Positions 7,666-43,039 of a stretch of DNA of 64,000 bases are shown piece after piece (position 1 is the stretch's first letter; the number at the start of each line of letters is the position of its first letter). Both the position numbers and the translations under genes were made by a program. Under the pieces are notes generated by a model. The model made no database searches and was not told the DNA's origin. It saw only the letters and a program-made list of their open reading frames with translations. The DNA is from Pseudomonadota bacterium (lineage in GTDB: Bacteria > Bdellovibrionota > Bacteriovoracia > Bacteriovoracales > Bacteriovoracaceae), in NCBI GenBank assembly GCA_027487685.1, contig JAIYDC010000050.1, forward strand, positions 1 through 64,000, given 5' to 3'.

Positions 7666-8712
7666 TTAACGCTCGCGAGCGCGCAGAAACTCAATAAGCC
7701 GCTCTGCTCTAACCTGCTGAGTAGGCATGAAGCCAGTGGAGGTGTAGTGGGTACCTGGAACCGCCAGGAAGAGTTCACGGCGACTTTTAGAGTAAAAGTA
7801 GGTCCCGTTCATGAAGTGAGTGAAAAGCCAAATATCGTCCGTGACCTCCTGAACGTTCGAGGAGACAGAGGAATAGAATATATGACGGGGCGTAGCTTCA
7901 AATAGATGAATCAGCTTGCCAGTCCGAGGGTCGAGTTCGTTGACCGAAGACCAGAGGTCTGGAAGGCTCGGCCCAGAGACTTGAAAGAAATGCAGCTGAC
8001 CCGAATCCACCATGTTATTGAAGTAAAGAAAGTTTCCCCGTCGGGTAACCTGAACGTCGTGAACGTTGTGCAGACGAGAGTTCTTAAAGGTCATATGGTG
8101 GAGAACCTTCTGAAGGTCCGGGGACAGGATGAAAACGCCGAGAAAAGTTGAGTTGACGATAATGTTCCCTTCTCGGAGGTACGCAGGAAGATTCGAACCG
8201 ACGAGTTTGGGAATTTCGTAGATACTGTTAAAGTGCGTCGCCTCAACCTTCAACCCGGCCACCGGTTTTGATATCAAGAAGTTAAGTCGAGAACTATTTG
8301 TCGCCTTCAAAAGCGGAAGCGCTGTCTGAGAATGGAGGACGGTCCCTTTCAGATTAAGGACGAGAAAGCGATCTATACGCTCGCTACCAGAGACATCTGA
8401 GCTTAGGGCAAGGATTTTTTTTCCATCCGGGCTCAGATTAAGCTGATGATGAAAATGTCCTGGAATCTCCCAAAGTATCTCATCGTTCTTTGAGAAAAAG
8501 CGAAGATGCGTATCAGATCCCGAAATGAAGGAGCCATCGGGTAAGAAGATGCACATTGTCCCTGGAAAGCTTCCAACAGCCTCTCCGGTTAAAGCAAAGA
8601 GCCGGCAGCCATTGACAAGAGTAAACCCCTGAAGCCGAAGAATCTCTTGGGCAGAAGATGAGTGTGCGGCTAGAGGGAGTACGTACATAAGTACGGCGAA
8701 AATTAGTTGCAT
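7666..8712 (-). CDS. Arylsulfotransferase-like beta-propeller, paralog 1
   Basis: This 348-residue protein has a signal peptide (cleavage near LAAHS-S) and repeated strand motifs of the type 'DGSFISGSDTHLRFF' and 'SPDGKKILALSS' that mark a WD/NHL-like propeller. The HNVHDVQVTRRGNFLYFNN segment (about residues 205-223) followed by NELDPRTGKL resembles the HD...GN.L..N core of the arylsulfotransferase (ASST) superfamily. It probably acts in the periplasm or outside the cell. Whether it is a sulfotransferase is unknown: the family is named by fold. Paralog 2 (10080-11126) is very similar, including more than 50 consecutive identical residues. Its start codon overlaps the stop of a decayed lipoprotein gene (8703-8924). 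Confidence 0.75.
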   Translation of the reverse strand: MQLIFAVLMYVLPLAAHSSSAQEILRLQGFTLVNGCRLFALTGEAVGSFPGTMCIFLPDGSFISGSDTHLRFFSKNDEILWEIPGHFHHQLNLSPDGKKILALSSDVSGSERIDRFLVLNLKGTVLHSQTALPLLKATNSSRLNFLISKPVAGLKVEATHFNSIYEIPKLVGSNLPAYLREGNIIVNSTFLGVFILSPDLQKVLHHMTFKNSRLHNVHDVQVTRRGNFLYFNNMVDSGQLHFFQVSGPSLPDLWSSVNELDPRTGKLIHLFEATPRHIFYSSVSSNVQEVTDDIWLFTHFMNGTYFYSKSRRELFLAVPGTHYTSTGFMPTQQVRAERLIEFLRARER

Positions 8713-9661: not shown

Positions 9662-10089
9662 TTCTTCTACTCACGTCTTGCTCTGGTATTGTGAGGCAGC
9701 CTGTAAGCGAGTACCTGGGTTCGGGAAGCTACCGAAGAGAATTCTATGTAGCAAATGCCAACGATGCTCGGAGATTGATCTTAGTAAAGAAGCGCTTCCT
9801 GGAACTTCTTATAGAGTCGATCCGATCAGCACCACAGATTGGACATCCTCTTGATTGCCTTGAGGCCCAGAGGATCATAGGGCTTTTTAACAACGGGCTT
9901 CGTCTTGATGCCTTGATTTACACCAGCTCTCCTAACAATCTCGGGCTCCCAGCAGGGACGTGCATCAACACAGACACTCGTCTCTCCTCGATAACTTATG
10001 CTTATTGCCCTGTCCTCGGGGCCGTCGTTGAAGTCCAGGTTCGCGCCGGGGTGATCACTAATTATCAAAGGCTTGACTTATGCAACTAA
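9643..10089 (+). CDS. Small Cys-rich lipoprotein B
   Basis: A 148-residue paralog of lipoprotein A. The signal peptide is very short (MRTAILVLLLTSC, lipobox Cys 13). The family pattern is present: VKKRFLELLIES helix, then DCLEAQ, GTCIN, AYCPV and a C-terminal LDLCN. The last codons (TTA TGC AAC TAA) contain the ATG of the propeller gene at 10080, so the two are translationally coupled. The same overlap is seen between lipoprotein C and propeller 3, and as a relic before propeller 1. No function is known. Confidence 0.7.
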   Translation: MRTAILVLLLTSCSGIVRQPVSEYLGSGSYRREFYVANANDARRLILVKKRFLELLIESIRSAPQIGHPLDCLEAQRIIGLFNNGLRLDALIYTSSPNNLGLPAGTCINTDTRLSSITYAYCPVLGAVVEVQVRAGVITNYQRLDLCN

Positions 10090-11126
10090 TCTTCGCCCTT
10101 GTTCTGTCCACACTTTCAATTCTTGCTCATTCCTCGCCGGTCAATGAGCTTCTTCAGCTACAGGCATTGACGCTCGTTAACGGCTGCCGTCTTTTTGCTT
10201 TGACTGGCGAATCGGTTGGGAGTTTCCCGGGTACCATGTGCATCTTCTTACCCGACGGCTCCTTCATTTCGGGATCTGATACGCATCTTCGCTTTTTCTC
10301 AAAGAACGATGAGATACTTTGGGAGATTCCAGGACATTTTCATCATCAGCTAAATCTGAGTCCTGACGGGAAGAGGATCCTCACTTTAAGCTCCGTCACT
10401 AGTGGAAAAGAGCGTGAAGACCGATTTCTCGTCCTTGATCTCAAAGGGAGTATTGTTCACGCTCAAACAGCCCAACCGCTCCTGGCGGCAACTAAAACTT
10501 CTCGCCTCAATCTTCGGATGCCCATTCCTATGGGTTCCTTGAAAATCGAATCGACGCACTTTAATAGTATCTATGAAATTCCTAAGCTCGACGGGTCGAA
10601 TCTTCCAGCGTACCTCCGAGAGGGGAACATCATCGTGAATTCGACTCATCTTGGGGTCTTCATCCTGTCCCCGGACCTCCAGCAGGTCCTATATCATTCA
10701 ACTTTCGCAAACTCTCGGCGGCACAATGTTCATGACGTTCAGGTAACCCGACGCGGAACTTTCTTGTACTTTAATAACATGGTGGAATCGGGCCAACCCC
10801 AGTTCTTTCAGGTTGCGGGCCCTGGGCTGCCCGACCTGTGGTCTGCGGTTAACGAACTCGACCCTAGGACCGGCAAATTATTGCATACCTTCGAAGCTCA
10901 ACCTCGCCACCTTTTTTATTCCTATATATCCTCTAACGTTCAAGAAGTGACAGAGGATATCTGGCTATTTACTCATTTCATCAATGGCACTTACCTCTAT
11001 TCCAAAAGCCGACGTGAACTAATTCTTGCCGTCCCGGGAACACACTACACCCCTAGTGGCTTCATGCCTTCTCAGCAGGTGAGAGCAGAGCGGCTTATCG
11101 AGTTTCTCCGCTCACGCGAACGTTAA
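10080..11126 (+). CDS. Arylsulfotransferase-like beta-propeller, paralog 2
   Basis: A 348-residue secreted propeller with signal peptide, nearly the same length and sequence as paralog 1. The block from GSFPGTMC to LSPDGK is identical apart from the ends. The HD...GN/TFLYFNN core and the C-terminal QVRAERLIEFLR tail are conserved. It is the third gene of the operon with lipoproteins A and B and starts within the stop region of B. About 40 bases past the stop also match the 3' flank of paralog 1, so the duplication covers the whole unit. The predicted location is the periplasm or cell surface; substrate unknown. Confidence 0.75.
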   Translation: MQLIFALVLSTLSILAHSSPVNELLQLQALTLVNGCRLFALTGESVGSFPGTMCIFLPDGSFISGSDTHLRFFSKNDEILWEIPGHFHHQLNLSPDGKRILTLSSVTSGKEREDRFLVLDLKGSIVHAQTAQPLLAATKTSRLNLRMPIPMGSLKIESTHFNSIYEIPKLDGSNLPAYLREGNIIVNSTHLGVFILSPDLQQVLYHSTFANSRRHNVHDVQVTRRGTFLYFNNMVESGQPQFFQVAGPGLPDLWSAVNELDPRTGKLLHTFEAQPRHLFYSYISSNVQEVTEDIWLFTHFINGTYLYSKSRRELILAVPGTHYTPSGFMPSQQVRAERLIEFLRSRER

Positions 11127-11436: not shown

Positions 11437-12474
11437 CTACATCTTTCGTGCACGCATGAATCCACTGAGATTCTCAGCACGGACCTGCTGAGAAGGTCCA
11501 AAGCCCGTTTCCTGAAAATGAGTGCCGGGAACAAAAAGAATCAATTTCTTCTGAGAGTGGGAATAGATATAGGTGCCGTTAAGGTGATGTGTAAAGAGCC
11601 AGAGATCATCTGTCAATTGCTGGACGTTCGCAGAGACCCATGAATAAAAAGTTTCCTTCGGCTCCGCCTGAAAGTTTCTCACAATCTGATAGGTGCGAGG
11701 CCGAACTTCATGAACTGCGGAAAAGTTATTAGAAAAAAGAGATCCTGCAATTGGAACGTAAGATGCCTGGCCGGTGAAAACCAGGTTATTGAAGTAAAGA
11801 AAATTTCCCGCTGAGGTCACTTGCACGTCATGAACTCGATGGAGCTGGGAGTTCGGAAACTTGGTATGAAAAAGAACCTTTTGAAGATCTGGCGTCAGAA
11901 TGAAGACACCGAGTTCGAGAGAATTCAGGATGAGATTCCCCTCACGCAGGTACTCAGGATGACCGGCCCCTGAGAGCTTCGGAATTTCGTAAAAGCTGTT
12001 AAAGTGCGACACCTCGAGATCCACCTTACCGATAGGAACACGAATGTTATACCGAAGCGGAGATACGCCGGCTTGTCTCAATAATGGAAGCGAGGTCTGA
12101 GAATGAAGCACACGTCCATTGAGGTCTAAGACTAAGAACTTATCTTGTCTGGTCGTCCCTTCGAAAGAAGAGCTGAGGGCAAGTAACCGCTTCCGGTCCG
12201 GAGTCAAATTGACCTGAAGGCGGAAGTGCCCGGGGTGCTCCCAGAGGATGGCATCGTCTTTTGAGAAGTAGCGAATATGAGTATCGGAGGCCGAAACAAA
12301 GGAACCATCCTCAAAGAAGACACAGATAACTCCAGGGAACCGTGCCACCACCTGTCCCGTTATGGAAAAAAGTTGGCAGCCGTTAACAAGATGCAGCGTC
12401 TGCAGGAACGGTAGATCTGTCGCAGACACGATGAAAGAAAAAAGCCCTGAGAGGGCCAGGAGAATTAGTCGCAT
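11437..12474 (-). CDS. Arylsulfotransferase-like beta-propeller, paralog 3
   Basis: A 345-residue diverged paralog of the propellers at 7666 and 10080. The signal peptide (MRLILLALSGLFSFIVSATD), the NGC-LF motif near residue 32, the SDTHIRYFSKDD and LTPDRKRLLALSS strands, the HRVHDVQVTSAGNFLYFNN core and the QVRAENLSGFMR tail are all kept. Divergence is spread along the length, so this copy is older than the inverted duplication. Its ATG lies inside the stop region of lipoprotein C (ATGCGACTAA), giving the same coupled arrangement as unit 2. Confidence 0.75.
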   Translation of the reverse strand: MRLILLALSGLFSFIVSATDLPFLQTLHLVNGCQLFSITGQVVARFPGVICVFFEDGSFVSASDTHIRYFSKDDAILWEHPGHFRLQVNLTPDRKRLLALSSSFEGTTRQDKFLVLDLNGRVLHSQTSLPLLRQAGVSPLRYNIRVPIGKVDLEVSHFNSFYEIPKLSGAGHPEYLREGNLILNSLELGVFILTPDLQKVLFHTKFPNSQLHRVHDVQVTSAGNFLYFNNLVFTGQASYVPIAGSLFSNNFSAVHEVRPRTYQIVRNFQAEPKETFYSWVSANVQQLTDDLWLFTHHLNGTYIYSHSQKKLILFVPGTHFQETGFGPSQQVRAENLSGFMRARKM

Positions 12475-13055: not shown

Positions 13056-15971
13056 ATGGAACAGCAACAAAAAAGCCTCGTAATGAAAGACTCTCCCACA
13101 GTGGTGCCTGAGCTGGACTCGTTCCGGCTCTTCGCCAGACCCCTAACGGCCAGGCTCCTCGAGGCCATGGAGCTCGGGAAACATTTCTTCCATGGTGAGG
13201 GTGATTACCTCTACTATCAGCAAGACAACAGGATCCACCGTGCACTCGATGTAACTGGCGGCTACGGTGCCAATATACTTGGACACCGCCATCCATCGAT
13301 CCTTCAGAAGGTCCAGGAGTGGCGAGAGGCCGGAGCTCCCTCACTCACCCAGGGAAGCTCTCGCCGTGAGGCAGGCAGACTCGCAGAACGCCTCTCAAAA
13401 ACACTTCAGGAGGAAACAGGGGAAGGCCCTTGGGTTACGACGTTTTCAAATACCGGAACAGAAGCGGTAGAAGCCGCTTATAAGCATTGTCTTCTGTACT
13501 TCCGCCAGAAAGCACTTGAGCTCCAGCAGGAGATCGAAAAAGAATTAAACCTTGTCGTCACCAGAATCATGCGCTTAAAGACAGACCAGCAGATCGCTGT
13601 CATGAAAGGCCTGCGGGCAGAATTGATCCATCGTACAGATTCGCTCCGGATGTCTCCAGAGCGGCGTTCATACCTCCTTCATCAGCTCGCCAACTGCCAC
13701 GACCTCGATACTCTCGTCGGTTTGGTACGAATTGTTAACGAAGGCCAGCTCGCCGAACATCCCCATTTCATCGCTCTGGAGCGTGCCTACCATGGGAAGA
13801 CGATGGGCGCCCTCAGCCTCACTTATAATGAAAGCTTCCGCAATCCGTTTTTCCTGGATGCCAAGTCAAATACTCGAACAAGTTTCGTTTCTCAGTTCAT
13901 CGAGGCCAAGGAACTCGAGGCAATCATAGAAGGACTACGCAGGGACCTCCTGTTTATAGGTCTTGGACCAAATGGAGCAACCTGGGTACGGCACTCGTTT
14001 TCAATCCTGGCAGGAGCATTTGTTGAGCCTATTCAGGGCGAGGCAGGCGTTGTCCCGGTAAACACAAACTTTCTGGCCCAGCTTAAAAAGTTTTCCCTCC
14101 AGGAGAACTTTCTCCTTGTGTACGACGAAATTCAGGCAGGCATGTACCGGACCGGTCGCCTCGCTTCCGGGAGTCACTCCGATGTAACTGCCGACGTGTA
14201 TACTTTTTCTAAGTCTCTTGGAGCAGGAGTGGCGAAAATCGCGGCAACGACAATCAACGAAAAAAAGTATGTAGAAGAATTTGGCTTCCTCCACACGTCC
14301 ACCTTTGCTGATGATGACTTTTCTTCATCGGTGGCACTTGCAGTTCTGGACCTTCTTCAGAGTGAAGTATCTCCGGTGCCACAGGGCCTTCGAAACGCCG
14401 ACTACCTCGCAACACAGCTTGAGTCTCTGCGTGATCGTTATCCGGATTACATCAAGGAGATCAGAGGCAAAGGGCTTATGCTAGCGATTGAATTCCAAGA
14501 CCGCCTCGCCGAGCTGGGTTTTGAATTCAAGATCATGTGTGATGCAAAGATGCAGGGCTACCTACTTGCCTCTTGCCTCCTTAATCACGAAAGTATCCGG
14601 ACCACACCATCCCTCTCAAATAGCCTGACTTTGCGAATTCAGCCTAGTATCTACTTCACAGAAACTCAGACGGACGAACTGCTCCGAGGTCTCGAGAACC
14701 TGTGCCGAGCACTTACGGAGAAGAATCTTCGCTATTTTCTATCTGCGCTATATCCTAATGAGGAAGTTGCTAACATTCCCTCTCCTCCACTCAAGAACGA
14801 CTTTATCCCAGGTCAGCGACGCACAGCTGTTTTCCTTTGTCACCTTATCGATGAGCGCCACGTTCAAAGAGTGACTAATCCCTTGAGGCAAGTCTCAAGC
14901 AAACTCCTGGTCCAAAAGCTTGCTCTGACAAAGGAGTTAGCCGAGTTTGAAGTTTATCATTCTCAGACACTCATCGATAACTCTGGTCAGGAAATGGATG
15001 TTCTCTTGATGGCGGTTCCCATTACCTCAGAGGAACTTAAGAAAACTTTCACCTCTCGCCAAAAATCAAAGGTCATTCAAAAAGTTCAGAATGCCATCGA
15101 TTACGCCAAAGAGCTTGGTGCAAGTACCGTTGGGTTAGGTCAATTTACCTCCATCGTTTCAGGAAACGGTCTCTACTTGAATCCCAGAGGCCTGAACCTT
15201 ACTACGGGCAACGCTTTTACAATCGCTCTCACAGTTCAGTCTGCTCTCAGATCGGCAGAAGCTAAAAAGATTGATCTTCCTCGCGCTAGCGTGGCACTCA
15301 TTGGGGCAGCGGGTAACATCATGTCAGTTGCCACAACTCTCATGGCCGATCACGTCGGTAAACTTATTCTTGTCCACCACACACCGATCGAGGCGAGCAG
15401 TAAGTTCCAAGGGACGATGCGAAAGATGCTGACAGAAATGGCCTCCTCGGAAGCAACATCGGAGGTCTGCCGGGTTATTCGTGAGCATTGGAAAAATCAA
15501 GACCTCTTGAGTTTTCTCGAGCTAGAAGAAGTCAAGCGCGTCTTAGTCGCCACTGCAGACGTCACTCAAGTCAGGGAAGCAGAAATCGTCCTTTGCGGCG
15601 CCAGCGCTTCAAATGGATTCCTTACCCTCGACCTCTTTAAAGAAAATGCCGTGGTCGTGGACATCGCCGTCCCTCCATCCATAACGCCTGAGATGCATAA
15701 AGAGCTAAAGGTCAAACGGCCAGATCTTACTTATCACATGGGTGGAGTGGCACAGATCCCTAAGGGACAGAGCCTCGACTTCTTCATCTTCCCCCTGGGA
15801 GAGAATGAATGCTACGCCTGTATGGCGGAGACTTTCTCCCTCGGCTTCAGCGGACGCGAGAATTTCCTTAATATCGGTGACCTGAATAAGGCCATCGTCT
15901 TAGAGGTTCAGGAAATAGCCCGTCAAGTGGGGTTTGTCCTAGGAAGCGATAAGAAAAAAAGCTCGTTATAG
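13056..15971 (+). CDS. Class III aminotransferase fused to acyl-ACP reductase
   Basis: About 971 residues, two enzymes in one chain. Residues about 30-580 form a fold-type I, class III PLP aminotransferase: DEIQAGMYRTG (about 357) and the PLP lysine in TFSKSLGAG (about 386). Residues about 585-971 match long-chain acyl-ACP reductase (AAR, known from cyanobacterial alkane synthesis): LGQFTSIVS, the LTTGNAFT motif (about 715), a nucleotide-binding GAAGNIMSVA loop (about 748) and YACMAET with the position of the catalytic Cys (about 921). Known AAR reduces acyl-ACP with NADPH to an aldehyde; I infer that the aldehyde is then aminated to a primary amine. The start is uncertain: 12951 (GTG) and 13083 are alternatives, and none has a clear Shine-Dalgarno. 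The 3' end overlaps the convergent GNAT gene by 6 bases. Confidence 0.85.
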   Translation: MEQQQKSLVMKDSPTVVPELDSFRLFARPLTARLLEAMELGKHFFHGEGDYLYYQQDNRIHRALDVTGGYGANILGHRHPSILQKVQEWREAGAPSLTQGSSRREAGRLAERLSKTLQEETGEGPWVTTFSNTGTEAVEAAYKHCLLYFRQKALELQQEIEKELNLVVTRIMRLKTDQQIAVMKGLRAELIHRTDSLRMSPERRSYLLHQLANCHDLDTLVGLVRIVNEGQLAEHPHFIALERAYHGKTMGALSLTYNESFRNPFFLDAKSNTRTSFVSQFIEAKELEAIIEGLRRDLLFIGLGPNGATWVRHSFSILAGAFVEPIQGEAGVVPVNTNFLAQLKKFSLQENFLLVYDEIQAGMYRTGRLASGSHSDVTADVYTFSKSLGAGVAKIAATTINEKKYVEEFGFLHTSTFADDDFSSSVALAVLDLLQSEVSPVPQGLRNADYLATQLESLRDRYPDYIKEIRGKGLMLAIEFQDRLAELGFEFKIMCDAKMQGYLLASCLLNHESIRTTPSLSNSLTLRIQPSIYFTETQTDELLRGLENLCRALTEKNLRYFLSALYPNEEVANIPSPPLKNDFIPGQRRTAVFLCHLIDERHVQRVTNPLRQVSSKLLVQKLALTKELAEFEVYHSQTLIDNSGQEMDVLLMAVPITSEELKKTFTSRQKSKVIQKVQNAIDYAKELGASTVGLGQFTSIVSGNGLYLNPRGLNLTTGNAFTIALTVQSALRSAEAKKIDLPRASVALIGAAGNIMSVATTLMADHVGKLILVHHTPIEASSKFQGTMRKMLTEMASSEATSEVCRVIREHWKNQDLLSFLELEEVKRVLVATADVTQVREAEIVLCGASASNGFLTLDLFKENAVVVDIAVPPSITPEMHKELKVKRPDLTYHMGGVAQIPKGQSLDFFIFPLGENECYACMAETFSLGFSGRENFLNIGDLNKAIVLEVQEIARQVGFVLGSDKKKSSL

Positions 15972-17096: not shown

Positions 17097-18394
17097 GTCC
17101 GCCTCCGGAATCTCATCATAATATTATTTACGGGTCTTAGGCTTATACCTGCCTCGTTCAGCTGGGGCCCCGGATCTAGAATTTCCCAGGTAAAATGCTG
17201 AACCAGACAGGCGAGGATGATCCTGGCCTCAATGCCAGCGAAGTAAGCCCCGATACACGCGCGCGGACCGAGACCAAAGGGGTAATATGCACCTGCGGGA
17301 ATTTTCTTTTTCTCCTCTGGCAGGAAGCGCGATGGTCGGAACTCATTTGGAGCGTCCCAGAGATCAGCCGCTCGGTGAGAGAGGATGGGTGCCAGGACGA
17401 CGTTGGCACCAGGCGGAATAACCTGGTCACCGAGCTTGTCCGAAATTTCCGCCTGTCGCATGAAAACCCAGACTGGAGGCCAGAGTCGCATCACTTCATC
17501 GAGAACCGCTCCATGCCAGGGAACGGTGTTTAGTTTCTCGAAGTCGCGATCACTAAAGAAGGTCCGGGCCTCCCTTTCAAGCTCAACTCGACATTCAGAA
17601 TGCTTGGCAATCTCGATCAAGGTGTACGTAAGTGAGTTCGTAATAGTCTCGTGACCCGCCATCATAAAAGTCATGATCTCGTCCCGAATCTCTCGATCAC
17701 TCATCTGCGTCGTCCCCTCGCCTTGAGCATCAATCAGGAGCTGAAGGAGATCTTGCTTACGTGTCCCATGACGCCGCTCATGAATAAGACCAAAAACATG
17801 GCGATCAAACTTCGCGATAATCTCTCTCAGCCGTAGATGATTACCTGTAGGTACCCAAAAAGGGATCGGAAGAGACGAGCGGGTTTTCGCTGTTATGATA
17901 CGCATGAGTTCTAGAATCTCATGAAGCCATTCATCGAGTGCCGGAGTCGGCTCCTGAGAGAAAAGAGTCCGGAGAATAATCCTCCAAGTAAGACGGTTCA
18001 TCTGGTGAAATCCGTCCACATCGCCATCCACATCCAGAGAGGGGAGAAAAGTTTCGACGGTCTCAAGCATTTTCGGTGCAAGGTCGAAGACACTCCGTAA
18101 GTTCATTACTGGGCGGATCATCCGGTGCTGCTTGCGCCAGGATTCTCCTTCATTGGTGATGAGTCCATTTCCGAGAAAGCGCCTTAAGGCCTTGGTAGTA
18201 CGACCTTTGGTATAAGAGCTATTATTTGTCTTAAGGACATACACAACGTCGTCCGGGTGGCTCACGAAAAAGATCTTCTTTCCAAATATTTCTAAGCGAG
18301 CGCGATGGCCCTGGAGTCGATGCAGGTTTTGAATGAACCCGAGGGGGTCGCTACGGTAGTCTTTCAAAGTCCGATATGATTTCAGAAAACTCAT
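17093..18394 (-). CDS. Cytochrome P450
   Basis: A 433-residue soluble P450, a haem monooxygenase that hydroxylates or otherwise oxidises a substrate with O2 and electrons from a redox partner. The I-helix motif MMAGHETITNS (about 245-255), the ExxR motif in DEVMRLWPP (about 298) and the haem loop FGLGPRACIG with the thiolate Cys (about 377) are all present. The N-terminal FLKSYRTLKDYRSDPLGF and the general pattern resemble CYP102/CYP4-like fatty acid or terpenoid hydroxylases. No ferredoxin or reductase gene is nearby. It overlaps the PPS-like gene by ATGA, so translation is coupled. Confidence 0.95.
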   Translation of the reverse strand: MSFLKSYRTLKDYRSDPLGFIQNLHRLQGHRARLEIFGKKIFFVSHPDDVVYVLKTNNSSYTKGRTTKALRRFLGNGLITNEGESWRKQHRMIRPVMNLRSVFDLAPKMLETVETFLPSLDVDGDVDGFHQMNRLTWRIILRTLFSQEPTPALDEWLHEILELMRIITAKTRSSLPIPFWVPTGNHLRLREIIAKFDRHVFGLIHERRHGTRKQDLLQLLIDAQGEGTTQMSDREIRDEIMTFMMAGHETITNSLTYTLIEIAKHSECRVELEREARTFFSDRDFEKLNTVPWHGAVLDEVMRLWPPVWVFMRQAEISDKLGDQVIPPGANVVLAPILSHRAADLWDAPNEFRPSRFLPEEKKKIPAGAYYPFGLGPRACIGAYFAGIEARIILACLVQHFTWEILDPGPQLNEAGISLRPVNNIMMRFRRRT

Positions 18395-20787
18395 AGTACC
18401 TCGATCGTTCCTTTAAGAGCGTCCATACGCAGCCGGTCGCCCGTCTTAATTTTCTGAGTGGCCCCACGCACACCTACAACTGTAGGAATGTTGAGCTCCC
18501 GTCCAATGATCGCCGTGTGACTCAACAGAGAGCCTTTCTCAGAAATAAGCCCACGGCTCCGAGACATGATGTAAACCCATGCCGGGTCTGTATTCTTTGT
18601 AACCAGGATAAAATCACTGAAGTCAGACACCAAAACGTCCCGTGGGTTGTCGAGCACCAGTGCAACACCTTCTGCGATACCAGGAGAAACCCCCTGTCCT
18701 GCGAGTGCTCCCAGGGTTCGATTCGCACTAGGCTCCGGAAGAGGCTCCTGTGCAACCCAAGCAATGACCTCCGGATAGTGACGTTTCTTATCCTTCCAAC
18801 CTCGCCGATCTTGCAGCCGTTCGCGGACCTTTTGCTCCGAGATTTTACCATCAGCATAATCAAGCCACTCCTCGGAAGAGAGGGAGAAAAAATCGAGGAG
18901 GTCGAACTCTTTCCATGCTGGATCGCTGTCCATCAACCGGCCGGCCAGAGCTAGTACCATTTGTCGAATAAGGTGATAGAACTTTCCTCGCCACAACCGA
19001 GTTGCTTCGCGCATAGAAACCGCATCTCGAGTATATCTGAGGATACGATTACCGACAAAACCCAGATTAGGCTTTTGGGGTGGAGTTGCGGATGCCAGAG
19101 TCAAGGCAGTATTTTTTTTACACCACAGCATGAGATCGGCCAAGAGCCGGGGATTGTTCCTTAGAGGAAGACTTTCAAGTTTGAGTTCTTCAAATGAGCG
19201 GTCACCGTAGCAGCGTAGAAAATCGTCTAGGAGCTTGACCTCGCGCTCTCTGCCCTGAGTACACAAATTTCGAAAGATTTCATCATAAGGTGATAGGCCA
19301 ATCGAAAGTTCCTGGGCCGCAAACTCTCGAAGGAATTCTTCGTCGAGCGCCTCAATAAGCTGGTTAAAGTGCTCAAGAGGCTTTACCGAGTCGACACCAT
19401 CATCAGTCTTAAGTAAGTCGATCACAGTATCCTCATGCAGGTTCTTCGCCTTCAATTTGCGAGTGAGATAACCTAGACCCATCATAATAAAGATGTCATT
19501 GACCACCGTGAGACCAAATCCCAGGGGGCGGTTAGTCACCTCCACTAAAAAGCGGATCAGCTCCGCAGGACTTTGTCGTGTTGTAATCTCTTGCTCAATC
19601 TCACCCCTGAATCGATCAAGATCCGCCAGAAGTTGATTGAAGATCTGGCGGTGCCCCTTGAGGATACGGACAAGAGCGATGCCTGTCTGGAGGGTTTCAA
19701 GTCGCGTGAGCTCTGTGGCATGGTAAGGGATGAAATGGTCGGCCACCTTTCCACCAATCATTTTATGCCAATTATCGATGTTACGTTCTCCTCCCGGTAG
19801 TGCACGAAGAACGGCGTAGTAATGCTCGAGATTGTAATAAAGGTGGTTATCCACTTCACTGATGAGTTGCGAATAGTGATGATTGAGAGCTTCGAGTCGC
19901 GGGCCCTGGGCCCCCATGAGAATCGCAGACTCCTTAAAAACATTTTGGTATGCCTTCTTCACAAAAGCAGCGGTAAATGGACTCACTGTACCCGGGTATG
20001 ATTCAGAAAGATTCGTATCGACGAAGTAGACGAGTGGTTCAAAGGAACGAGTGATAGGCCTAATCTGGAACACAAAAAGTGTGCCATCTTTTATGCCCCA
20101 TTCGATGTCACTGGGAGGGCCAGCCTTTGCTTCAAGTGCCAAACCAAACTTTAAAAGCATATCGAGTTCGAGGGAAGAGAGGACAGGATTCTCAGCGGCG
20201 AGCGTCGAAGCTACGAGTTCACCGGTCCGTGCTAATCGGTAGGTATCCACATCGGCGTGTCCGGAAACGACTCCCTCCCCCATTCCGAGGGCAGCATCAA
20301 TGACGACAGTCGAAGTCGGGGTTACCGGAGAGCGAGTAAAAAGAACGCCGCTTTTGTCTACCTGGACCAATGCCTGTACCACCACCGCCATCTCAAGGTT
20401 AATCGAGATTTTTTTCTGTAAGACATACTCACGGACGCGGTCACTTTCAAGTGATGCATAGATCTGACCTAGGGCCCGTTGCCAGTCATCTTCACGGACT
20501 CCGAGAATTGTGTCGAAGAGACCTGCGAAACTCGCGTCGGCGGCGTCCTCGGCGATCATAGAACTCCGGAGTGCTACAAGTGGATGGTCTTGAAAAAAAA
20601 GTCGAAAACGATCGAAGAGATCCGGAGGAAAGCTGCCATGCTTTTGAAACCATCGATAAGCATTCGTGGTCACCACGAAGAAAGGCGGTACTGGAGCGGC
20701 CCAAGAAACGAGTTTTTGAAGCTGATGACCTTTTCCCCCGACGGACGTCGCCGGAGCAGTAGGACCCATTTCCGCAATCAGAGTCAT
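18391..20787 (-). CDS. PEP-synthase-like ATP-grasp/phospho-His enzyme 1
   Basis: This 798-residue protein has the PEP synthase N-terminal ATP-grasp domain (GGKGHQLQKL near residue 18; ALRSSMIAEDAADASFAGL near 75; VDKSGVLFTRSP near 145) and, at its very C-terminus, the swivelling phosphohistidine domain (GSLLSHTAIIGREL, His about 757). The PEP-binding C-terminal barrel of true PEP synthase is missing. This order is that of rifampicin phosphotransferase and of PigC/RedH/TamQ condensing enzymes, which activate a substrate with ATP. The middle 400 residues would hold substrate specificity. It sits in an operon with UbiA-like and P450 genes through ATGA overlaps. I infer phosphorylation or ATP-driven condensation of a pathway intermediate. 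Confidence 0.85.
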   Translation of the reverse strand: MTLIAEMGPTAPATSVGGKGHQLQKLVSWAAPVPPFFVVTTNAYRWFQKHGSFPPDLFDRFRLFFQDHPLVALRSSMIAEDAADASFAGLFDTILGVREDDWQRALGQIYASLESDRVREYVLQKKISINLEMAVVVQALVQVDKSGVLFTRSPVTPTSTVVIDAALGMGEGVVSGHADVDTYRLARTGELVASTLAAENPVLSSLELDMLLKFGLALEAKAGPPSDIEWGIKDGTLFVFQIRPITRSFEPLVYFVDTNLSESYPGTVSPFTAAFVKKAYQNVFKESAILMGAQGPRLEALNHHYSQLISEVDNHLYYNLEHYYAVLRALPGGERNIDNWHKMIGGKVADHFIPYHATELTRLETLQTGIALVRILKGHRQIFNQLLADLDRFRGEIEQEITTRQSPAELIRFLVEVTNRPLGFGLTVVNDIFIMMGLGYLTRKLKAKNLHEDTVIDLLKTDDGVDSVKPLEHFNQLIEALDEEFLREFAAQELSIGLSPYDEIFRNLCTQGREREVKLLDDFLRCYGDRSFEELKLESLPLRNNPRLLADLMLWCKKNTALTLASATPPQKPNLGFVGNRILRYTRDAVSMREATRLWRGKFYHLIRQMVLALAGRLMDSDPAWKEFDLLDFFSLSSEEWLDYADGKISEQKVRERLQDRRGWKDKKRHYPEVIAWVAQEPLPEPSANRTLGALAGQGVSPGIAEGVALVLDNPRDVLVSDFSDFILVTKNTDPAWVYIMSRSRGLISEKGSLLSHTAIIGRELNIPTVVGVRGATQKIKTGDRLRMDALKGTIEVL

Positions 20788-21659
20788 AGAAGCGCACCGA
20801 CGAGGAGGGCCGAAACGACCAAAAGAATCTGCGCCTCGGCGATAGGTCTCAGGGGCCTTGGCAAACGGAGGGTCACGAGAAAATTCACTGACGGGAAAAC
20901 AAGTGCTGCCTGGATCACAAGGAAAATCGCCCAGAGATAGTTAGGGGTCGAAAGTTTTTCGAAAATGGCCACTACTGCGAATGTGTAGATGAACTGGAGA
21001 GCAAGGGCGATTATGATTGCAACTCGAGGTCCTAAAATCTTTGAGTAAGTCGTATAGGCATTCTCCTGCTCAGGGGCCCGAATCTTGCGAACTAGCTCCC
21101 AGGTAGTAAACATAAGGCAGACGGGGAAAATGTATCCAATCATAGAGAAGGAAACAGCTGGATTTATTTCAGTACAGGCCAGGACAAGGTAAGTGAAATT
21201 AAACAGAACAATCGGGTGATGGGAGACAAATGCGAGAGGAAGACTTCTCCGCATTCTCTCTTCTAAAAAAAACCATTTTAACATGAGGTAGGTAAACCCA
21301 AGCGTAACTAAAGCCCAGTTCAGAAGCTTGATGGAAGTAAGACTCAAAAAGATCACCATAAAAATGCAGAAAAACCCCAAGGAGCGAAGATCCGCAGCGA
21401 GCACCCTCCCGGATGGAAGAGGTCTTTCTGGAAAATTTGTAAGGTCGTCTTGGTAATCCTTGAACTCATCCATGACACGAATCAGGAGTGACACAAAGGC
21501 GAGCACCACTCCAGGAACGACCAGCATGAGGATCGAGCTGTGACGGACTCCGTATAGCCGCAGGTAGGTCAGCTGGACGGCAACAGCAGTTAGGATGGAA
21601 CCCGCAAATGACGACATCGGGAACATCTCATTAAGATAGACGAAAATGCGTTTCAACAT
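20784..21659 (-). CDS. UbiA-family prenyltransferase-like membrane protein
   Basis: A 291-residue protein with about eight or nine membrane segments. The first Asp-rich motif of the UbiA superfamily is visible as DEFKDYQDD (64-72), followed by FPERPLPSGR, and the second half has the degenerate counterpart ELVRKIRAPEQENAYTTYSKILG. UbiA enzymes transfer an isoprenoid chain to an aromatic ring, to glycerol phosphate lipids or to other acceptors. The adjacent CarS-like gene recalls archaeal lipid synthesis, where a UbiA member makes digeranylgeranylglyceryl phosphate. Acceptor and donor are not predictable from sequence. The gene lies 8 bases after carS and overlaps the PPS-like gene. Confidence 0.85.
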   Translation of the reverse strand: MLKRIFVYLNEMFPMSSFAGSILTAVAVQLTYLRLYGVRHSSILMLVVPGVVLAFVSLLIRVMDEFKDYQDDLTNFPERPLPSGRVLAADLRSLGFFCIFMVIFLSLTSIKLLNWALVTLGFTYLMLKWFFLEERMRRSLPLAFVSHHPIVLFNFTYLVLACTEINPAVSFSMIGYIFPVCLMFTTWELVRKIRAPEQENAYTTYSKILGPRVAIIIALALQFIYTFAVVAIFEKLSTPNYLWAIFLVIQAALVFPSVNFLVTLRLPRPLRPIAEAQILLVVSALLVGALL

Positions 21660-21667
21660 ATCAATTC

Positions 21668-22225
21668 CTAGAATGGATTCTTGCGGATGCCCGCGAAGTA
21701 GAGGGTTACATTAATGAGTAGATGGAGGATCGTGCCGAAGCCGACTGCGACTACCATGGTTACTGCACTTACTGGTAGGAGAAGTCGGTAGGCCAGGAGG
21801 CAGCCAACGGCAGAATCTGCCTGATCAAGGACTACAAAGAACCACTTGTACCGATCCGACGTCTGACCTTCCCGGATACCTAGCCGCCGCTTCAGGAATG
21901 AGTTCGGAAGTTCCGCGAGACAGTACCCCAATCCCAGAAGAAATGCGAAGAGGATTGCTGAGTGATCGCCGAATAGCGGTGTATTTAAGTCAAACAAGGG
22001 TTCTAATGAGCGTGCCAACAGAACTCCGGGCCAGGTAGCGAGGGGCATCACAAGAAACCCACGCCAGGTCTTGTTTTGTCCAAACCACCTTTGATGTATG
22101 GGCTTCTTAAAGTAAGATAGGATATCCGCCTTTACCGCAACCATATGAAAAACTCCCCCGACAATGAGGGGGACAGTAAGTAGGAACACCCGGCCAAACT
22201 CGTGAACGGCGGAAACTGGACTCAT
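21668..22225 (-). CDS. CDP-archaeol synthase (CarS)-like CTP transferase
   Basis: A 185-residue integral membrane protein. The block KPIHQRWFGQNKTWRGFLVM, then AELPNSFLKRRLGIREG and the short VLDQADS motif match the CarS/DUF46 family, which transfers CMP from CTP to a lipid phosphate to give a CDP-activated lipid. The length (about 180) is typical. In archaea this step follows prenyl ether formation; in bacteria the family is sporadic and its substrates are mostly unknown. It is the first gene of the five-gene minus-strand operon and starts only 11 bases from the divergent permease gene, so the two promoters must lie inside each other's coding sequence or overlap. Confidence 0.8.
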   Translation of the reverse strand: MSPVSAVHEFGRVFLLTVPLIVGGVFHMVAVKADILSYFKKPIHQRWFGQNKTWRGFLVMPLATWPGVLLARSLEPLFDLNTPLFGDHSAILFAFLLGLGYCLAELPNSFLKRRLGIREGQTSDRYKWFFVVLDQADSAVGCLLAYRLLLPVSAVTMVVAVGFGTILHLLINVTLYFAGIRKNPF

Positions 22226-26084: not shown

Positions 26085-27302
26085 ATGAAGACAATCGCCT
26101 CGATCTTGTTGTTTAGCATGGCCCCGCTCATGGCAATCGCCATGAACGCCGATCTGTCTGGAAACCTAGAAGGTCAATTCCGGAACGCTACAAACAATGA
26201 CGAGGCAAAAAAATCGCCTCTGTTCCAGGACTGGGACAACGAGAACTTCTTCCTTGCCTATGGTAACGTTAACGCCAAAATCGAATTAGGTGATTCTCGC
26301 CTTGAGGCGAATTGGTTTGGGCGCCACGGACTATCCCCCCTGTACGAGCCAAAACCCTTAAGCCCTCTTGGGGCCGATCGAGATCCCTACCTCGCGACAA
26401 ATGTTTTCAGTTTTCCGCAGCGGCTCGTGGCACGGGATATGTTCAAGCTTCAACACGTGTACCAGCAAGGCGATCGAAAAACGGAGTCCGTCCTCAACAA
26501 GTTCTACTACGAGTGGGACTACGACAAAAACCGTTTCATGGTTGGCCGGATGTACATCAACTATGGTCTGGGCGAAATCTTTAATCCGATGAACCCCTTT
26601 AATCAACCCACAGGCCTCACGGCGATTTCTCAGGTTGCCCAAGGCAACGATGGATTCTCCCTCACCTACTTTGTCAGCGACTCCCACACTATCCAATTCC
26701 TGCTCCTGGGCGACAAACGTATCGAAGGTTACGACGGCGAGATCAATCGAACTCTCTGGCTCCATGGCGAGTACCAATACTCCGGTAATCTCCAGCTCGA
26801 TTATGTCATCGGCGAAGACCAGAACCGGCAGAAAATCGGAGGTCAGGTTAGCTACCAGTTAGAGGATGCACTCATTTTTACGCAGCTTCTCTACCAGTCG
26901 CCAAATATAAAGGACGAGCCGTCCCACAACCTCTTGGATCTGCTCTTTGGATACGATCAGCAGCTTACAGGAATCTGGCACGTACGGTTCGAGGGTGGGT
27001 ACCAGAAATCTGATCGCTTTGCGACGGCGACTACCTTCGACCGATTTCTGCCCACGGAGTACTTCGGTGCCCTTGCAAACGTCATAGAGGTCCATCCCTT
27101 ACTGAAAGTTAGTGGAACACTCATTCACGACGTCAAATCGGGTTTCAGCTACACCATCGCCAAGGCGACCTATAGCGCTACAAAAAGTACCGAGGTCGAA
27201 GCCTTCGCCTTTAGCCCAATCTCCCGGGGAGATGAGCCTGACAACCTAGCCCAGAAGCTTGTCACTCAAGACTTAGGCGTGGCCCTGCGCGCTTTCTTCT
27301 AA
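26085..27302 (+). CDS. Outer-membrane beta-barrel of the export operon
   Basis: A 405-residue protein with signal peptide (cleavage near IAMNA) and a long series of amphipathic strands ending in a terminal Phe (VALRAFF). It resembles the DUF1302-type barrels that sit with LolA-like proteins and lipid exporters, but I assign this by context and pattern, not by a diagnostic motif. It is the fifth gene of the export operon. The 3' end overlaps the convergent second PPS-like gene by 30 bases. It probably receives the cargo or acts as an outer-membrane exit or insertion site. Confidence 0.7.
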   Translation: MKTIASILLFSMAPLMAIAMNADLSGNLEGQFRNATNNDEAKKSPLFQDWDNENFFLAYGNVNAKIELGDSRLEANWFGRHGLSPLYEPKPLSPLGADRDPYLATNVFSFPQRLVARDMFKLQHVYQQGDRKTESVLNKFYYEWDYDKNRFMVGRMYINYGLGEIFNPMNPFNQPTGLTAISQVAQGNDGFSLTYFVSDSHTIQFLLLGDKRIEGYDGEINRTLWLHGEYQYSGNLQLDYVIGEDQNRQKIGGQVSYQLEDALIFTQLLYQSPNIKDEPSHNLLDLLFGYDQQLTGIWHVRFEGGYQKSDRFATATTFDRFLPTEYFGALANVIEVHPLLKVSGTLIHDVKSGFSYTIAKATYSATKSTEVEAFAFSPISRGDEPDNLAQKLVTQDLGVALRAFF

Positions 27303-29588
27303 GACCTCCACTAAACCCGTTTTTCCATTCATTCGGATGAGGTCACCATCTTTAATGAGCTTGGTAGCACCAATCAGATTTAGGATTGCAGGTATCCGAT
27401 ACTCTCGTCCAATCACAGCGGCGTGAGACAAAAGGCCTCCAACCTCGGTGATCACTCCCCCGACACGGGCGAGAACCGGTGTCCATCCGGGATCAGTGAA
27501 GACGGTCACAAGAATCTCATCTTTCCTGAGGCCTCCAGTCTGATGGATGTCGAATATGACCCGCGCACGCCCCGTAATTTCACCGGGACTACAGCCTACA
27601 CCCTTGAGATCTCCAGATCCCGAAGCTTTTGCAGCTTGAATACTCCCACCGAATTCATTGGGCGGAGTGAACAGGCGATACCCCTCATAATACTGACGCC
27701 TACGGGTCGTATCCGGGAGTGAGGAGCCGGATAAGGCCCTCAGGACTTCCTTGATGTCGAGCATGAAGACATCAAGCTCAGACATGTCCCGACGCTGAGC
27801 GAACTCAAGGAGTCCGAGGCGTAGGAGGTAATAAGCGCGCGTCGAATAAGAGCGCATCTCTTCACGCAGACGCAGGTACTCACGAGAGGCTTCCGTGCGT
27901 CGTTGGAAGGTCAGCCGTCCTAGAAAGCCGAGTTTATTTCGGATGCGCTCAAAGGTTGCACGGTAGCGGTCTTCTCCGCCCACGCTCGAGGGGAGGTAGC
28001 TTCTAACGAGGTCGTCAACCCAATCCTTACGTTCGCCCCAGCGTGGCACCCGAAGATCTAGCTCTGCAGGCCCATGATGGTAATGATCTTTAAGGAAGAT
28101 TTCTCGTTCTCGGTGATACCCCTCAGACCCGAGGCTGGATAACTCCGCCACAGACCATAACTTCGCAAGCCCGCCCTGTACGTCCAGATGCGCGACACCC
28201 CGGAGCTCACTCATAAGGTCGACCTCGTCGCCAAGTTCGTACCCAGGAAGTTTTTTCAGATAGCTTTTGTACTCCGTTTGGTAGTTTGAATTATTGTAAA
28301 TAGTCCGGAAATAGCTTTTCTCTGTCTCGTTCTGATAACGAATAACATCGGCAAACCAAGTGGCAAATTCTGACATCGGCATGAGATGAAGTTCTGGAAG
28401 CTTCGACTTCAGATAACCATCTCTTATCTCGAAAGCGTCCCGAAACAGGCGGATCATATTCCGGCAATCAAGGAATTCCTTATTGATCCCAATCAGTACA
28501 GGAATAGCTCCGACAATGGTCGCGAGAGAAACCGGGGTATGTGCCGGACCCGCCTCGCCGTAATCCTTCTGAACTCCGATATCGCGGTCAAAATCGGCTT
28601 CTTTGAAATCCGGTAGTTTTTTAAGACCGTCCTTCACCGCCCCGGCGTTCCAGTAAACGCGGCCGTAGTGATAAACTATCCAGTCAACCTCCTCATCGTT
28701 TGTAATCAACTGAACTTTTTTTAAATAATCTCCCATCGAATACCTAAGCGCATCTCGGTAGACGGAGAACATGAACTGGGTACAAACACGGGCGGAAACA
28801 CCTCCGTCTTTGAAATCAGCGTTGGTGAGTTCAGGAGAATCCGTACGAGGGGTGAAAGTGGTGACTGGCCTGGATTGGAGAATATAGACTTTGCCGTCTG
28901 CACCTATCGCCCACTCAATATCCTGAGGTGATCCATAATGGGCCTGGATACGTGCCGCCAAATCGACGAGCTCCTTTAGGTGCTCGAGAGCAATGGTTGT
29001 CCCTTCGGTGTTGATCGATTCAAGGAGCTTTCGATCCGATAGCCAGTCGTAGACAATCGATGTGGGTGTTACATGGCCCGAGACGAGGCGCTCCCCAAGT
29101 CCGGCACAACATTCGATGTACATCTCCTCCTCATGTCCGTTTAAGGGATTAATGGTGAAGAGAACACCCGCAATAAGTGCTGGAACCATTTTCTGCACTA
29201 AAACACTCATCCGCAGAGAATCTGGCGTCCAATCGATGCCTCGAGTCTGAAGGTAGTCACGCACACGCAGAGAATCCCGGGACGCAAAGCACTCAATGAT
29301 CCGCGCCTCTAGATCAGCGCCAGAGGTAACATCGAGGAAGGTCTCGTACTGGCCTGCAAAACTAGCATCTCCGAGATCCTCGAGACTTCCGCTCGAGCGC
29401 ACTGCCACAGGGAACCCCCCAATGATCTCGATTGCTGCCAAAGCTAAGGGAACGGGTTTTTCAAGCACAATGCCAGGAGGAACGGGAAAACCGGCAAGAA
29501 GGAGTTCGTGGAGCTTCCCTGCTTTACCGCCGAACGTTGAAATCGTCTCCACGTCCAGCGTGGGGTCTCCAAGATAAAAGTATGTCAT
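27273..29588 (-). CDS. PEP-synthase-like ATP-grasp/phospho-His enzyme 2
   Basis: A 771-residue relative of the 18391-20787 enzyme with the same domain order. The ATP-grasp part has TFGGKAGKLHELL (about 18-30), AVRSSGSLEDLGDASFAGQ and GVLFTINPLNG; the C-terminal swivelling domain has GGLLSHAAVIGRE (His about 721). The PEP-binding domain of PEP synthase is absent. The central region differs strongly from enzyme 1, so the two probably act on different substrates of one pathway or at two steps. It is convergent with the export operon and divergent from the radical-SAM operon. Confidence 0.85.
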   Translation of the reverse strand: MTYFYLGDPTLDVETISTFGGKAGKLHELLLAGFPVPPGIVLEKPVPLALAAIEIIGGFPVAVRSSGSLEDLGDASFAGQYETFLDVTSGADLEARIIECFASRDSLRVRDYLQTRGIDWTPDSLRMSVLVQKMVPALIAGVLFTINPLNGHEEEMYIECCAGLGERLVSGHVTPTSIVYDWLSDRKLLESINTEGTTIALEHLKELVDLAARIQAHYGSPQDIEWAIGADGKVYILQSRPVTTFTPRTDSPELTNADFKDGGVSARVCTQFMFSVYRDALRYSMGDYLKKVQLITNDEEVDWIVYHYGRVYWNAGAVKDGLKKLPDFKEADFDRDIGVQKDYGEAGPAHTPVSLATIVGAIPVLIGINKEFLDCRNMIRLFRDAFEIRDGYLKSKLPELHLMPMSEFATWFADVIRYQNETEKSYFRTIYNNSNYQTEYKSYLKKLPGYELGDEVDLMSELRGVAHLDVQGGLAKLWSVAELSSLGSEGYHREREIFLKDHYHHGPAELDLRVPRWGERKDWVDDLVRSYLPSSVGGEDRYRATFERIRNKLGFLGRLTFQRRTEASREYLRLREEMRSYSTRAYYLLRLGLLEFAQRRDMSELDVFMLDIKEVLRALSGSSLPDTTRRRQYYEGYRLFTPPNEFGGSIQAAKASGSGDLKGVGCSPGEITGRARVIFDIHQTGGLRKDEILVTVFTDPGWTPVLARVGGVITEVGGLLSHAAVIGREYRIPAILNLIGATKLIKDGDLIRMNGKTGLVEVLEESAQGHA

Positions 29589-29674: not shown

Positions 29675-29784
29675 GTCGAGCTTCCATTTGACCAAGGGAC
29701 GACGTTCCCAATAAGATGGCTCTATGAGCAGACTTTTTCCCTACTTCCTAGCTTCAAGCTTTGGATCGTTTTCAAGGGGGCTTA

Positions 29785-31209
29785 ATGCAAAGCCTTAACC
29801 TCCTGGAGCGGGTCGACCTCGAAGCCGTTCAGGGCCTGGTCTATCTTAAGCCAACCGAGCTTTGCTATGTGCGAGTCGCTTCCCTCACGAAACTGACCAG
29901 CATCGATTCGGTGGTGATTTCCGAGGCGGTGAGATACACCTCGAAGACCTTCGTGTCCTTTCCGATCGAAGAGATCAACAACCCTGAGAAAATCCTTTCG
30001 CTCTTAAAACTTGGGGTCAATGGCCTGGCACTTCGCGCGAGCTACGAGGATAAGAAGTTTCTCCACCACGAGCGCCGGGGCTCAGAGAGGTCTGGTGACC
30101 TGGATCTCATCGCAAAGGTCGAGCGGTTCCGCCGCGATTTTCCAAGCTTCGAGACCGTGGTCGAGTTTCAGCTCTTACCAGACATGCGCATCCTCGCCCC
30201 AACGATTGTACGCCTTTACGAAGATGGGATGCGGTGGGTGGTACTGAACGCAGAAGGCGAGCCCGACAAGCTCCGGATCTCCGGATTCCGGGAGATCTTT
30301 GAGTACCTCCGTATCAGAGGATGCAGCTACTTAAACGTCTACTTCCCTTTTTGGAACCGTCAGTTTCGCGAGTGGGACATAAAAACTCAGAACACATTCT
30401 CGGGCCTCTTTGAAGTTCACATCGACATCTCTAACCGATGCACTCATAGCTGTACCTTCTGCGGCCTTTATGGGCCCGCGGCCCTTGAGGATATCAAGAA
30501 AGACAATGGAGGCAAGCTCAGCTCGCAGGTCAACGAATTCATGAAAATGGAAATTGACTCTGAGCACTGTTACCAGATCATCGAAAGTCTGCCCTGGAGC
30601 GTAAACATCGTCCAGTTCGGCGGAGCGGGAGATCCCCTCATGCACAGAGATGCTGTGAAGTTTATCACGGCCGTCCGTAGTCGCGGATTCAAAGTAAGCG
30701 TACTCTCGAACATGGAGTACCTCGAAGAAGAGGACCTGCTCGAGCTTCACCGGCTTGGTGGACGCCAGGATGACCTTCACTTCATCGCTAACGTCTCCGC
30801 CGGAACTCCCGAGATGTACGTTAAAACCCGTCCTCGGCAAACTGATAAGACGTTTGACAAGGTCTCTTCAGTCCTGGACAGATTGAGCACACTGCGAGAG
30901 AGCAGCGCCGATGGGAGAGGAGTCTTCTTTACTGTGATGTGCGTAGTTACCACAATCAACTGCCAGTCTCTTTTGGACGTCGCCAAGCTTGCGGTTAAGC
31001 TCAGGGCGCAGAAGCTGTGGTTCAAACCAATGGAGCTTCATGCAAGTTTCCAGGCCCCTCTTATCCCAGGTGGCAATGAAATGATGCGCGATATGGCCCG
31101 TTCCCTCAAGGAAGCAGCTGACTATGCCCTGTCCCACGGTCTTGAACTTGAACAGCAGGAGTACTGCGAGCAGATCTTCGAGCGTTATTTGGGAGAGATT
31201 CATGTCTGA
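29785..31209 (+). CDS. Radical SAM protein with a separate SPASM partner, copy 1
   Basis: The start at 29785 follows an AAGGGGG Shine-Dalgarno and matches the start of paralog 40923-42350. The 474-residue protein has an N-terminal alpha/beta domain of about 200 residues that I do not recognise, then the radical SAM core with CTHSCTFC (Cys about 218, 222, 225) that binds the 4Fe-4S cluster and S-adenosylmethionine. FGGAGDP is the GGE-like SAM-binding strand. The usual C-terminal SPASM domain is missing; it is encoded by the next gene, which overlaps by 8 bases (ATGTCTGA). Such enzymes modify peptides or other substrates by radical chemistry. No precursor peptide is evident. Confidence 0.85.
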   Translation: MQSLNLLERVDLEAVQGLVYLKPTELCYVRVASLTKLTSIDSVVISEAVRYTSKTFVSFPIEEINNPEKILSLLKLGVNGLALRASYEDKKFLHHERRGSERSGDLDLIAKVERFRRDFPSFETVVEFQLLPDMRILAPTIVRLYEDGMRWVVLNAEGEPDKLRISGFREIFEYLRIRGCSYLNVYFPFWNRQFREWDIKTQNTFSGLFEVHIDISNRCTHSCTFCGLYGPAALEDIKKDNGGKLSSQVNEFMKMEIDSEHCYQIIESLPWSVNIVQFGGAGDPLMHRDAVKFITAVRSRGFKVSVLSNMEYLEEEDLLELHRLGGRQDDLHFIANVSAGTPEMYVKTRPRQTDKTFDKVSSVLDRLSTLRESSADGRGVFFTVMCVVTTINCQSLLDVAKLAVKLRAQKLWFKPMELHASFQAPLIPGGNEMMRDMARSLKEAADYALSHGLELEQQEYCEQIFERYLGEIHV

Positions 31210-42350: not shown

Positions 42351-42405
42351 AATGGCGCCTTATGTTTACCATCTATTTAAGCAAGATTCAGAACCCCAGT
42401 CTAGT

Positions 42406-42942: not shown

Positions 42943-43039
42943 TGAATCCTCCCGTGAAACAGAAGAAGCAAATTATGTGCCGCCCTTCAAGATTCAACTC
43001 CTTTAAACTACGGAGCTCCCATGCGGAGGACTGGAAAAA

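Follow-up and report, generated by a model that had tools for sequence, protein, structure and literature searches.

At positions 13056 to 15971 of the window, as we call the whole 64,000-nucleotide stretch of Bacteriovoracaceae DNA analyzed here, a single gene raises the question of whether one polypeptide makes fatty amines and, if it does, what these amines are for. An earlier note had read the product as a class III PLP aminotransferase joined to an AAR-type (acyl-ACP) reductase, in an order that it believed to be undescribed. It suggested a domain search of the C-terminal part and a search for the same two domains elsewhere as checks, and gave a C-terminal part closer to another dehydrogenase family and lacking the AAR active-site Cys, or a break-up of the fusion in relatives, as grounds for dropping the idea.

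Two enzyme domains in one chain

The aminotransferase and the reductase are encoded, in that order and as the note had it, by a single intact 971-aa ORF free of stop codons (Table 1). The longest ORF begins at an upstream GTG, which may be the true start, as position 13056 is not preceded by a clear ribosome-binding site. Aminotran_3 (PF00202) covers residues 47 to 521 (E = 3.9e-57) and is the sole Pfam family above cutoff in the fusion; the C-terminal 386 residues gave no Pfam family above cutoff (Shikimate_DH, 19.8 bits). In a phmmer search of the PDB, however, this C-terminal part matched the N-terminal half of PigE (4ppm, 3e-8) and Synechococcus AAR (6jzu, 1e-5), and with a 15-sequence profile the same two matches reached 3e-37 and 7e-29, respectively. 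Among NCBIfam models, the best match of the fusion is PigE (NF053554), with 277 bits against a cutoff of 850.

Lys386, in the motif FSKSLGAG, is invariant in 30 of 30 homologues with identities down to 28%. The same holds for Cys922 of YACMAET, which aligns to Cys294 of AAR, and for T716, G718, N719, and G750/G753. The first and second Gly of the nucleotide loop (GxxGxxG) are invariant in 30 homologues; at the position of the third, members of the window's clade have Met or Ile. The aminotransferase with its FSKSLGAG lysine and the AAR-type reductase with its catalytic cysteine in YACMAET, both put forward in the note, are borne out by these matches, and the two-domain match is far above chance expectation.

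The AlphaFold model of the fusion has a mean pLDDT of 87.6, and 506 of 511 residues of its aminotransferase part superpose on CrmG at 2.5 Å (Z 39). Foldseek and VIA-align searches with the whole model returned aminotransferases only; the assignment of the AAR fold therefore rests on the profile and sequence matches.

Table 1. Coordinates of the fusion, its domains, and associated genes in the window, and of related ORFs at other loci (prefix L)
Feature	Position	Strand	Evidence or remark
Transaminase-AAR fusion, 971 aa	13056..15971	+	Alternative GTG start 12951; Pfam, phmmer, profile, model
Class III PLP aminotransferase domain, ~aa 21-556, PLP Lys386	13116..14723	+	PF00202; CrmG, 506 residues aligned, Z 39
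Helical insertion in aminotransferase, ~aa 150-235	13503-13760	+	Helices in predicted model
AAR-type thioester reductase domain, aa 586-971, GAAGNIM loop at 750, Cys922	14811..15968	+	PDB profile search
Tandem GNAT-fold protein, 376 aa	15966..17096	-	AlphaFold pLDDT 87.6; Foldseek best, tandem GNATs; no Pfam match
Cytochrome P450	17093..18394	-	PF00067, 2.3e-64
PEPS-B, dikinase-type phosphotransferase, N-terminal ATP-grasp, C-terminal His domain (Rph/PigC-like layout)	18391..20787	-	PF01326, PF00391
UbiA-like membrane protein	20784..21659	-	PRK13592 prenyltransferase, 117.7 bits, below cutoff 443
CDP-archaeol-synthase-like (CarS) protein	21668..22225	-	PF01864, 43.7 bits, over cutoff 22
PEPS-A, second PigC/RedH-like phosphotransferase	27273..29588	-	NCBIfam matches; co-inheritance; Nocardia gene fusion
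Nocardia single-chain ORF	L065:999-6569		
Nocardia single-chain ORF	L069:9935-16003		
Nocardia single-chain ORF	L074:9965-16012		
Nocardia single-chain ORF	L077:8372-14335		
Insertion-like ORF, same genus	L037:6599-6919	-	
Insertion-like ORF, same genus	L038:6277-6600	+	
Insertion-like ORF, same genus	L039:7961-8188	-	
Insertion-like ORF, same genus	L124:1483-1701	+	
Insertion-like ORF, same genus	L126:1034-1333	+	
Insertion-like ORF, same genus	L127:2695-2916	+	
Insertion-like ORF, another genus	L171:4346-4699		
Insertion-like ORF, another genus	L172:7425-7778		

Distribution of the fusion and of an insertion-like protein

In relatives at 88 to 28% identity the fusion is uninterrupted. Within the genus, 11 other genomes carry it near full length in one match, G010 shows it as two matches in one frame, and in G017 contig ends interrupt it; a fusion with 48% identity is present in the next genus. 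At the loci read in relatives, the fusion is intact, cut at contig ends, truncated (G001), or lost, and the transaminase and the AAR were never found there as two separate genes. Neither ground for dropping the idea thus applies: the AAR Cys is present, and none of these loci has the fusion split into separate genes. The nearest named relatives belong to the Bacteriovoracaceae, a family of predatory bacteria, and include a genome labeled Bacteriovorax stolpii. In a sample of the phylum, 28 of 291 genomes match the fusion at E < 1e-60, and a scan of species genomes recovered it from Desulfobacterales, Planctomycetota, Undibacterium, Pseudomonas, Riflebacteria, Saccharomonospora, Nocardia, and others. 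The fusion thus occurs in several phyla.

Two other kinds of ORF share parts of this sequence. Many family members have ORFs of ~680 to 700 aa that match the AAR without a transaminase (query residues ~640 to 778 and 830 to 964; e.g., G027:C1:1735052-1735948 and G033:C138:12872-13744) and represent a different AAR-containing protein. At L168:7278-11816, the transaminase-AAR of a 1,512-aa ORF is preceded by ~600 aa with the look of a diverged acyl-AMP ligase, a segment in which Pfam gave no supporting match; this ORF may possibly encode a one-chain acid-to-amine enzyme.

Six genomes without an intact fusion have, at the same place, an ORF whose product (~70 to 115 aa) can be aligned to residues ~155 to 235 of the fusion, in the helical insertion of its aminotransferase domain, and is homologous to window positions 13518 to 13760. 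In a seventh, G020, the insertion-like ORF runs off the contig. Between G022 and G023, a single pair with dS near saturation, dN is 0.35 and dS 2.6 (dN/dS ~0.13), and codon position 2 is the most conserved; this ORF therefore apparently encodes a protein under purifying selection rather than a decaying relic, perhaps with a role in docking or regulation. Two genomes of another genus have kept the GNAT, P450, PEPS-B, and UbiA genes (CarS in one of them), the fusion being reduced to a small ORF that abuts the GNAT gene.

Genes that accompany the fusion

Downstream of the fusion gene lies a five-gene minus-strand run (GNAT-P450-PEPS-B-UbiA-CarS) in which neighbors overlap or nearly touch; its GNAT gene is convergent with the fusion gene, and the two stop codons overlap. 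The predicted fold of the tandem GNAT protein makes it a likely N-acyltransferase. All NCBIfam matches of PEPS-B are below cutoff, and the homologues of the UbiA-like protein in L049 and L055 match Pfam UbiA. This block accompanies the fusion across the genus and into the next one, with the P450 missing in L031, L033, and L034. G010 has the fusion with neither PEPS-A nor the GNAT-CarS block. The five non-carriers read at the locus lack the whole block as one piece but retain gene 6804 and the ABC transporter, together with LolA and an outer-membrane gene where the locus reaches far enough. What sets carriers apart from non-carriers is the entire block that lies between gene 6804 and this transporter.

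PEPS-A lies beyond the ABC transporter, linked to the fusion over 11 kb. An orthologue of PEPS-A (56 to 83% identity) occurs in 13 of the 14 genomes that carry the fusion, and all 12 genomes of the genus without an intact fusion lack one (Fisher, 1.3e-6, a value corrected neither for common ancestry nor for the 11-kb linkage). The best NCBIfam match of PEPS-A is the undecylprodigiosin ligase RedH, but the protein does not reach the curated cutoffs of the RedH and PigC models (285 versus 1350 and 259 versus 1300 bits).

No acyl-AMP ligase with an ACP adjoins the window's fusion gene, so the acyl donor would have to come from elsewhere; this genome has PP-binding (ACP-type) matches on contigs C14, C86, and C121 and none on C7, the contig of the window. 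The genome also holds, outside the window, one decarboxylase and two CDP-alcohol transferase genes that could complete a head-group route.

Other genes stand out in the window. Three paralogues of ~345 to 348 aa (7666-8712, 10080-11126, and 11437-12474; no Pfam match for the one scanned) adjoin the fusion only here and in the closest relative, L024, and small genes of a second paralogous set lie near two of them. Radical SAM and SPASM genes occupy 29761-31585 and 40923-44272, with more related ORFs nearby.

Beyond the genus, distant loci were retrieved by the fusion alone, and close lineages were counted once (n = 20). A PEPS-A-type gene lies near the fusion in 11 of these lineages, a PEPS-B-type gene in 7, a phosphatidylserine decarboxylase gene in 7, and a UbiA-like gene in 6; given assumed copy numbers, the PEPS-A, decarboxylase, and UbiA-like counts are each well over chance. 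Similar sets, often with the decarboxylase or a DUF3419 protein, occur in Desulfobacterales, Planctomycetota, Undibacterium, and other Bdellovibrionota. Two Desulfobacterales loci (L055 and L061) have, in order, PEPS-A, fusion, UbiA, DUF3419, PEPS-B, GNAT, and decarboxylase; the order in Undibacterium (L056) is fusion, PEPS-A, CarS, CDP-alcohol transferase, decarboxylase, and PEPS-B. At four Nocardia loci, transaminase, AAR, and PEPS-A form a single ORF of 1,857 to 2,022 aa, which in L069, the one checked by Pfam, has a weak thymidylate-kinase-like match at its C-terminal end. Actinobacterial fusions adjoin acyl-AMP ligase genes, in one case with a TamA-like ACP. In a tree of 42 fusions, the linkage to PEPS-A is scattered over both deep sides, suggesting that the partnership is either old or repeatedly formed. 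The recurring gene set points to a shared pathway for which the papers searched gave no description: our literature search met this gene combination nowhere, and the comparative papers on Bdellovibrionota that it covered are silent on it.

A probable route from acyl thioester to amine, and the proposed destination of the amine

On balance, we favor the view that the fusion is a bifunctional enzyme of the TamH/KecF type whose amine serves as a building block of a conserved amine-lipid pathway encoded around the gene. The two parts of this view differ in strength, amine formation being much more certain than the lipid destination. By analogy with PtTamH, which together with TamA and NADH turned a C12 acid into the C12 amine in vitro via acyl-ACP and aldehyde (PMC9594044), the fusion very probably forms an amine from an acyl thioester, i.e., a fatty amine from a protein-bound fatty acid by way of the aldehyde; this precedent supports the acyl-ACP-to-amine logic of the earlier note. 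That a lipid is where the amine ends up is a tentative reading, with somewhat less than an even chance, drawn from the company of genes. Against it counts that PigC/RedH-type enzymes are best known in pigment biosynthesis and not in lipids.

In the proposed pathway, Cys922 of the C-terminal AAR-like domain would accept the acyl chain delivered by an acyl carrier protein, and this domain would use NAD(P)H to reduce the thioester to the aldehyde, which the N-terminal PLP domain (Lys386) would convert to a long-chain primary amine, probably with glutamate as donor. The tandem GNAT probably N-acylates this amine, one or both PigC/Rph-type enzymes may perform an ATP-dependent phosphorylation or coupling of an intermediate, and the P450 may tailor the chain. 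Assembly and capping of a polar lipid would then fall to the UbiA-like and CarS-like proteins, joined in other phyla by phosphatidylserine-synthase and -decarboxylase or DUF3419 enzymes. The analysis itself shows the domains, the catalytic residues, the integrity of the fusion, the recurrence of the gene set, and the Nocardia multidomain chain, and the two-step chemistry is known from TamH; we infer the chain length, the amine donor, the sequence of the later steps, and what the product is. In G019 and in two genomes from another genus, the GNAT-to-UbiA block persists with only a fragment of the fusion, so the other genes of the cluster do not strictly require it.

The main competitor, which we consider unlikely, is a tambjamine- or prodiginine-like small molecule, made by a PigC/RedH-type enzyme that condenses the fatty amine with an activated aldehyde or ketone, with tailoring by the P450 and the acyltransferase. 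The best NCBIfam matches (RedH for PEPS-A and PigE for the fusion) speak for it, and the Nocardia chain fits a direct hand-over of the amine to a condensing enzyme; the scores, however, are far under the curated cutoffs, and no bipyrrole-synthesis genes are among those listed beside the fusion. The UbiA-, CarS-, and decarboxylase-type genes have, to our knowledge, no role in tambjamine or prodiginine pathways, which also tells against it. Phospholipid synthesis proceeds by head-group activation, serine transfer, and decarboxylation (PMC9385802); these steps have counterparts in the CarS-like, CDP-alcohol transferase, and decarboxylase genes, and we therefore favor, with modest confidence, a lipid based on the amine rather than a pigment of the tambjamine kind. 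The sphingolipids of Bacteriovorax stolpii need not involve the cluster, since this organism has a serine palmitoyltransferase of its own, already characterized (PMC8895605).

It is improbable that the C-terminal domain uses another thioester (an aminoacyl or branched acyl carrier, for example) to give a diamine or short amine instead of a fatty amine. Its closest PDB relative is indeed the reductase domain of PigE, the substrate of which is a substituted medium-chain thioester (PMC8341465), and its nucleotide motif has a change at the third Gly; yet AAR is nearly as close in the profile search, and related fusions adjoin fatty acyl-AMP ligase-type genes. Slightly less probable still is a KecF-like route, in which reductive release frees a polyketide or a modified acyl chain, the amine of which cyclises to an imine alkaloid: the domain order is that of KecF, and kecF is needed for koreenceine-dependent antagonism (PMC6498172; PMC10829540), but no ketosynthase gene was seen beside the fusion, and its neighbors are unlike those of the kec cluster.

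For the preferred amine-lipid pathway, a bolder claim, which we hold to be rather doubtful, is that it would be the first bacterial route to a polar lipid recognized as being based on a long-chain amine from a transaminase-AAR, using phosphotransferases of the PigC/Rph type along with a UbiA-like enzyme and archaeal-type CDP-lipid activation, and common to predatory Bdellovibrionota and several other phyla. If the product is an amine-based phospholipid, it would open a new branch of bacterial membrane chemistry. The fusion in any case adds predatory bacteria and several other phyla to the small, biotechnologically used class of enzymes that convert fatty acids to amines.

The design of the fusion is already known; the earlier observation was right and its claim of novelty wrong. 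An N-terminal transaminase followed by a C-terminal AAR-type reductase has been published for PtTamH (PMC9594044), KecF (PMC6498172), and PP_2782 plus three thermophile fusions from Thermaerobacter and Thermincola (PMC10829540). The note's remark that PigE and TamH have the opposite order holds for PigE, which is reversed, and fails for TamH, in which the transaminase is N terminal as here; nor are their reductases of a different type, that of PtTamH being AAR-type (PMC9594044) and that of PigE AAR-like (PMC8341465).

CrmG, the caerulomycin aminotransferase (5dds), is the closest solved structure to the transaminase part but lacks a reductase domain. Synechococcus AAR is homologous to the C-terminal domain, with its Cys aligned, but is a stand-alone enzyme whose aldehyde goes to a deformylating oxygenase and not to a transaminase. 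PigE, of prodigiosin synthesis, shares both domain families and is the top PDB match of the reductase domain; in view of its reversed order and the low NCBIfam score, we reject membership of the fusion in that family. KecF, PP_2782, and the thermophile fusions agree in domain order and families and differ in their neighbors, KecF belonging to a polyketide (koreenceine) cluster. PtTamH, from the tambjamine YP1 pathway of Pseudoalteromonas tunicata, is alike in domain order, PLP Lys, Cys, and size (941 versus 971 aa). It acts, however, with TamA (a ligase-ACP) and a bipyrrole pathway, and we reject membership of the window gene in a tambjamine pathway, there being no TamA-like partner on its contig and no bipyrrole genes seen among its neighbors; what surrounds it, unlike in the TamH system, are UbiA-, CarS-, and GNAT-type genes and two PigC-type genes.
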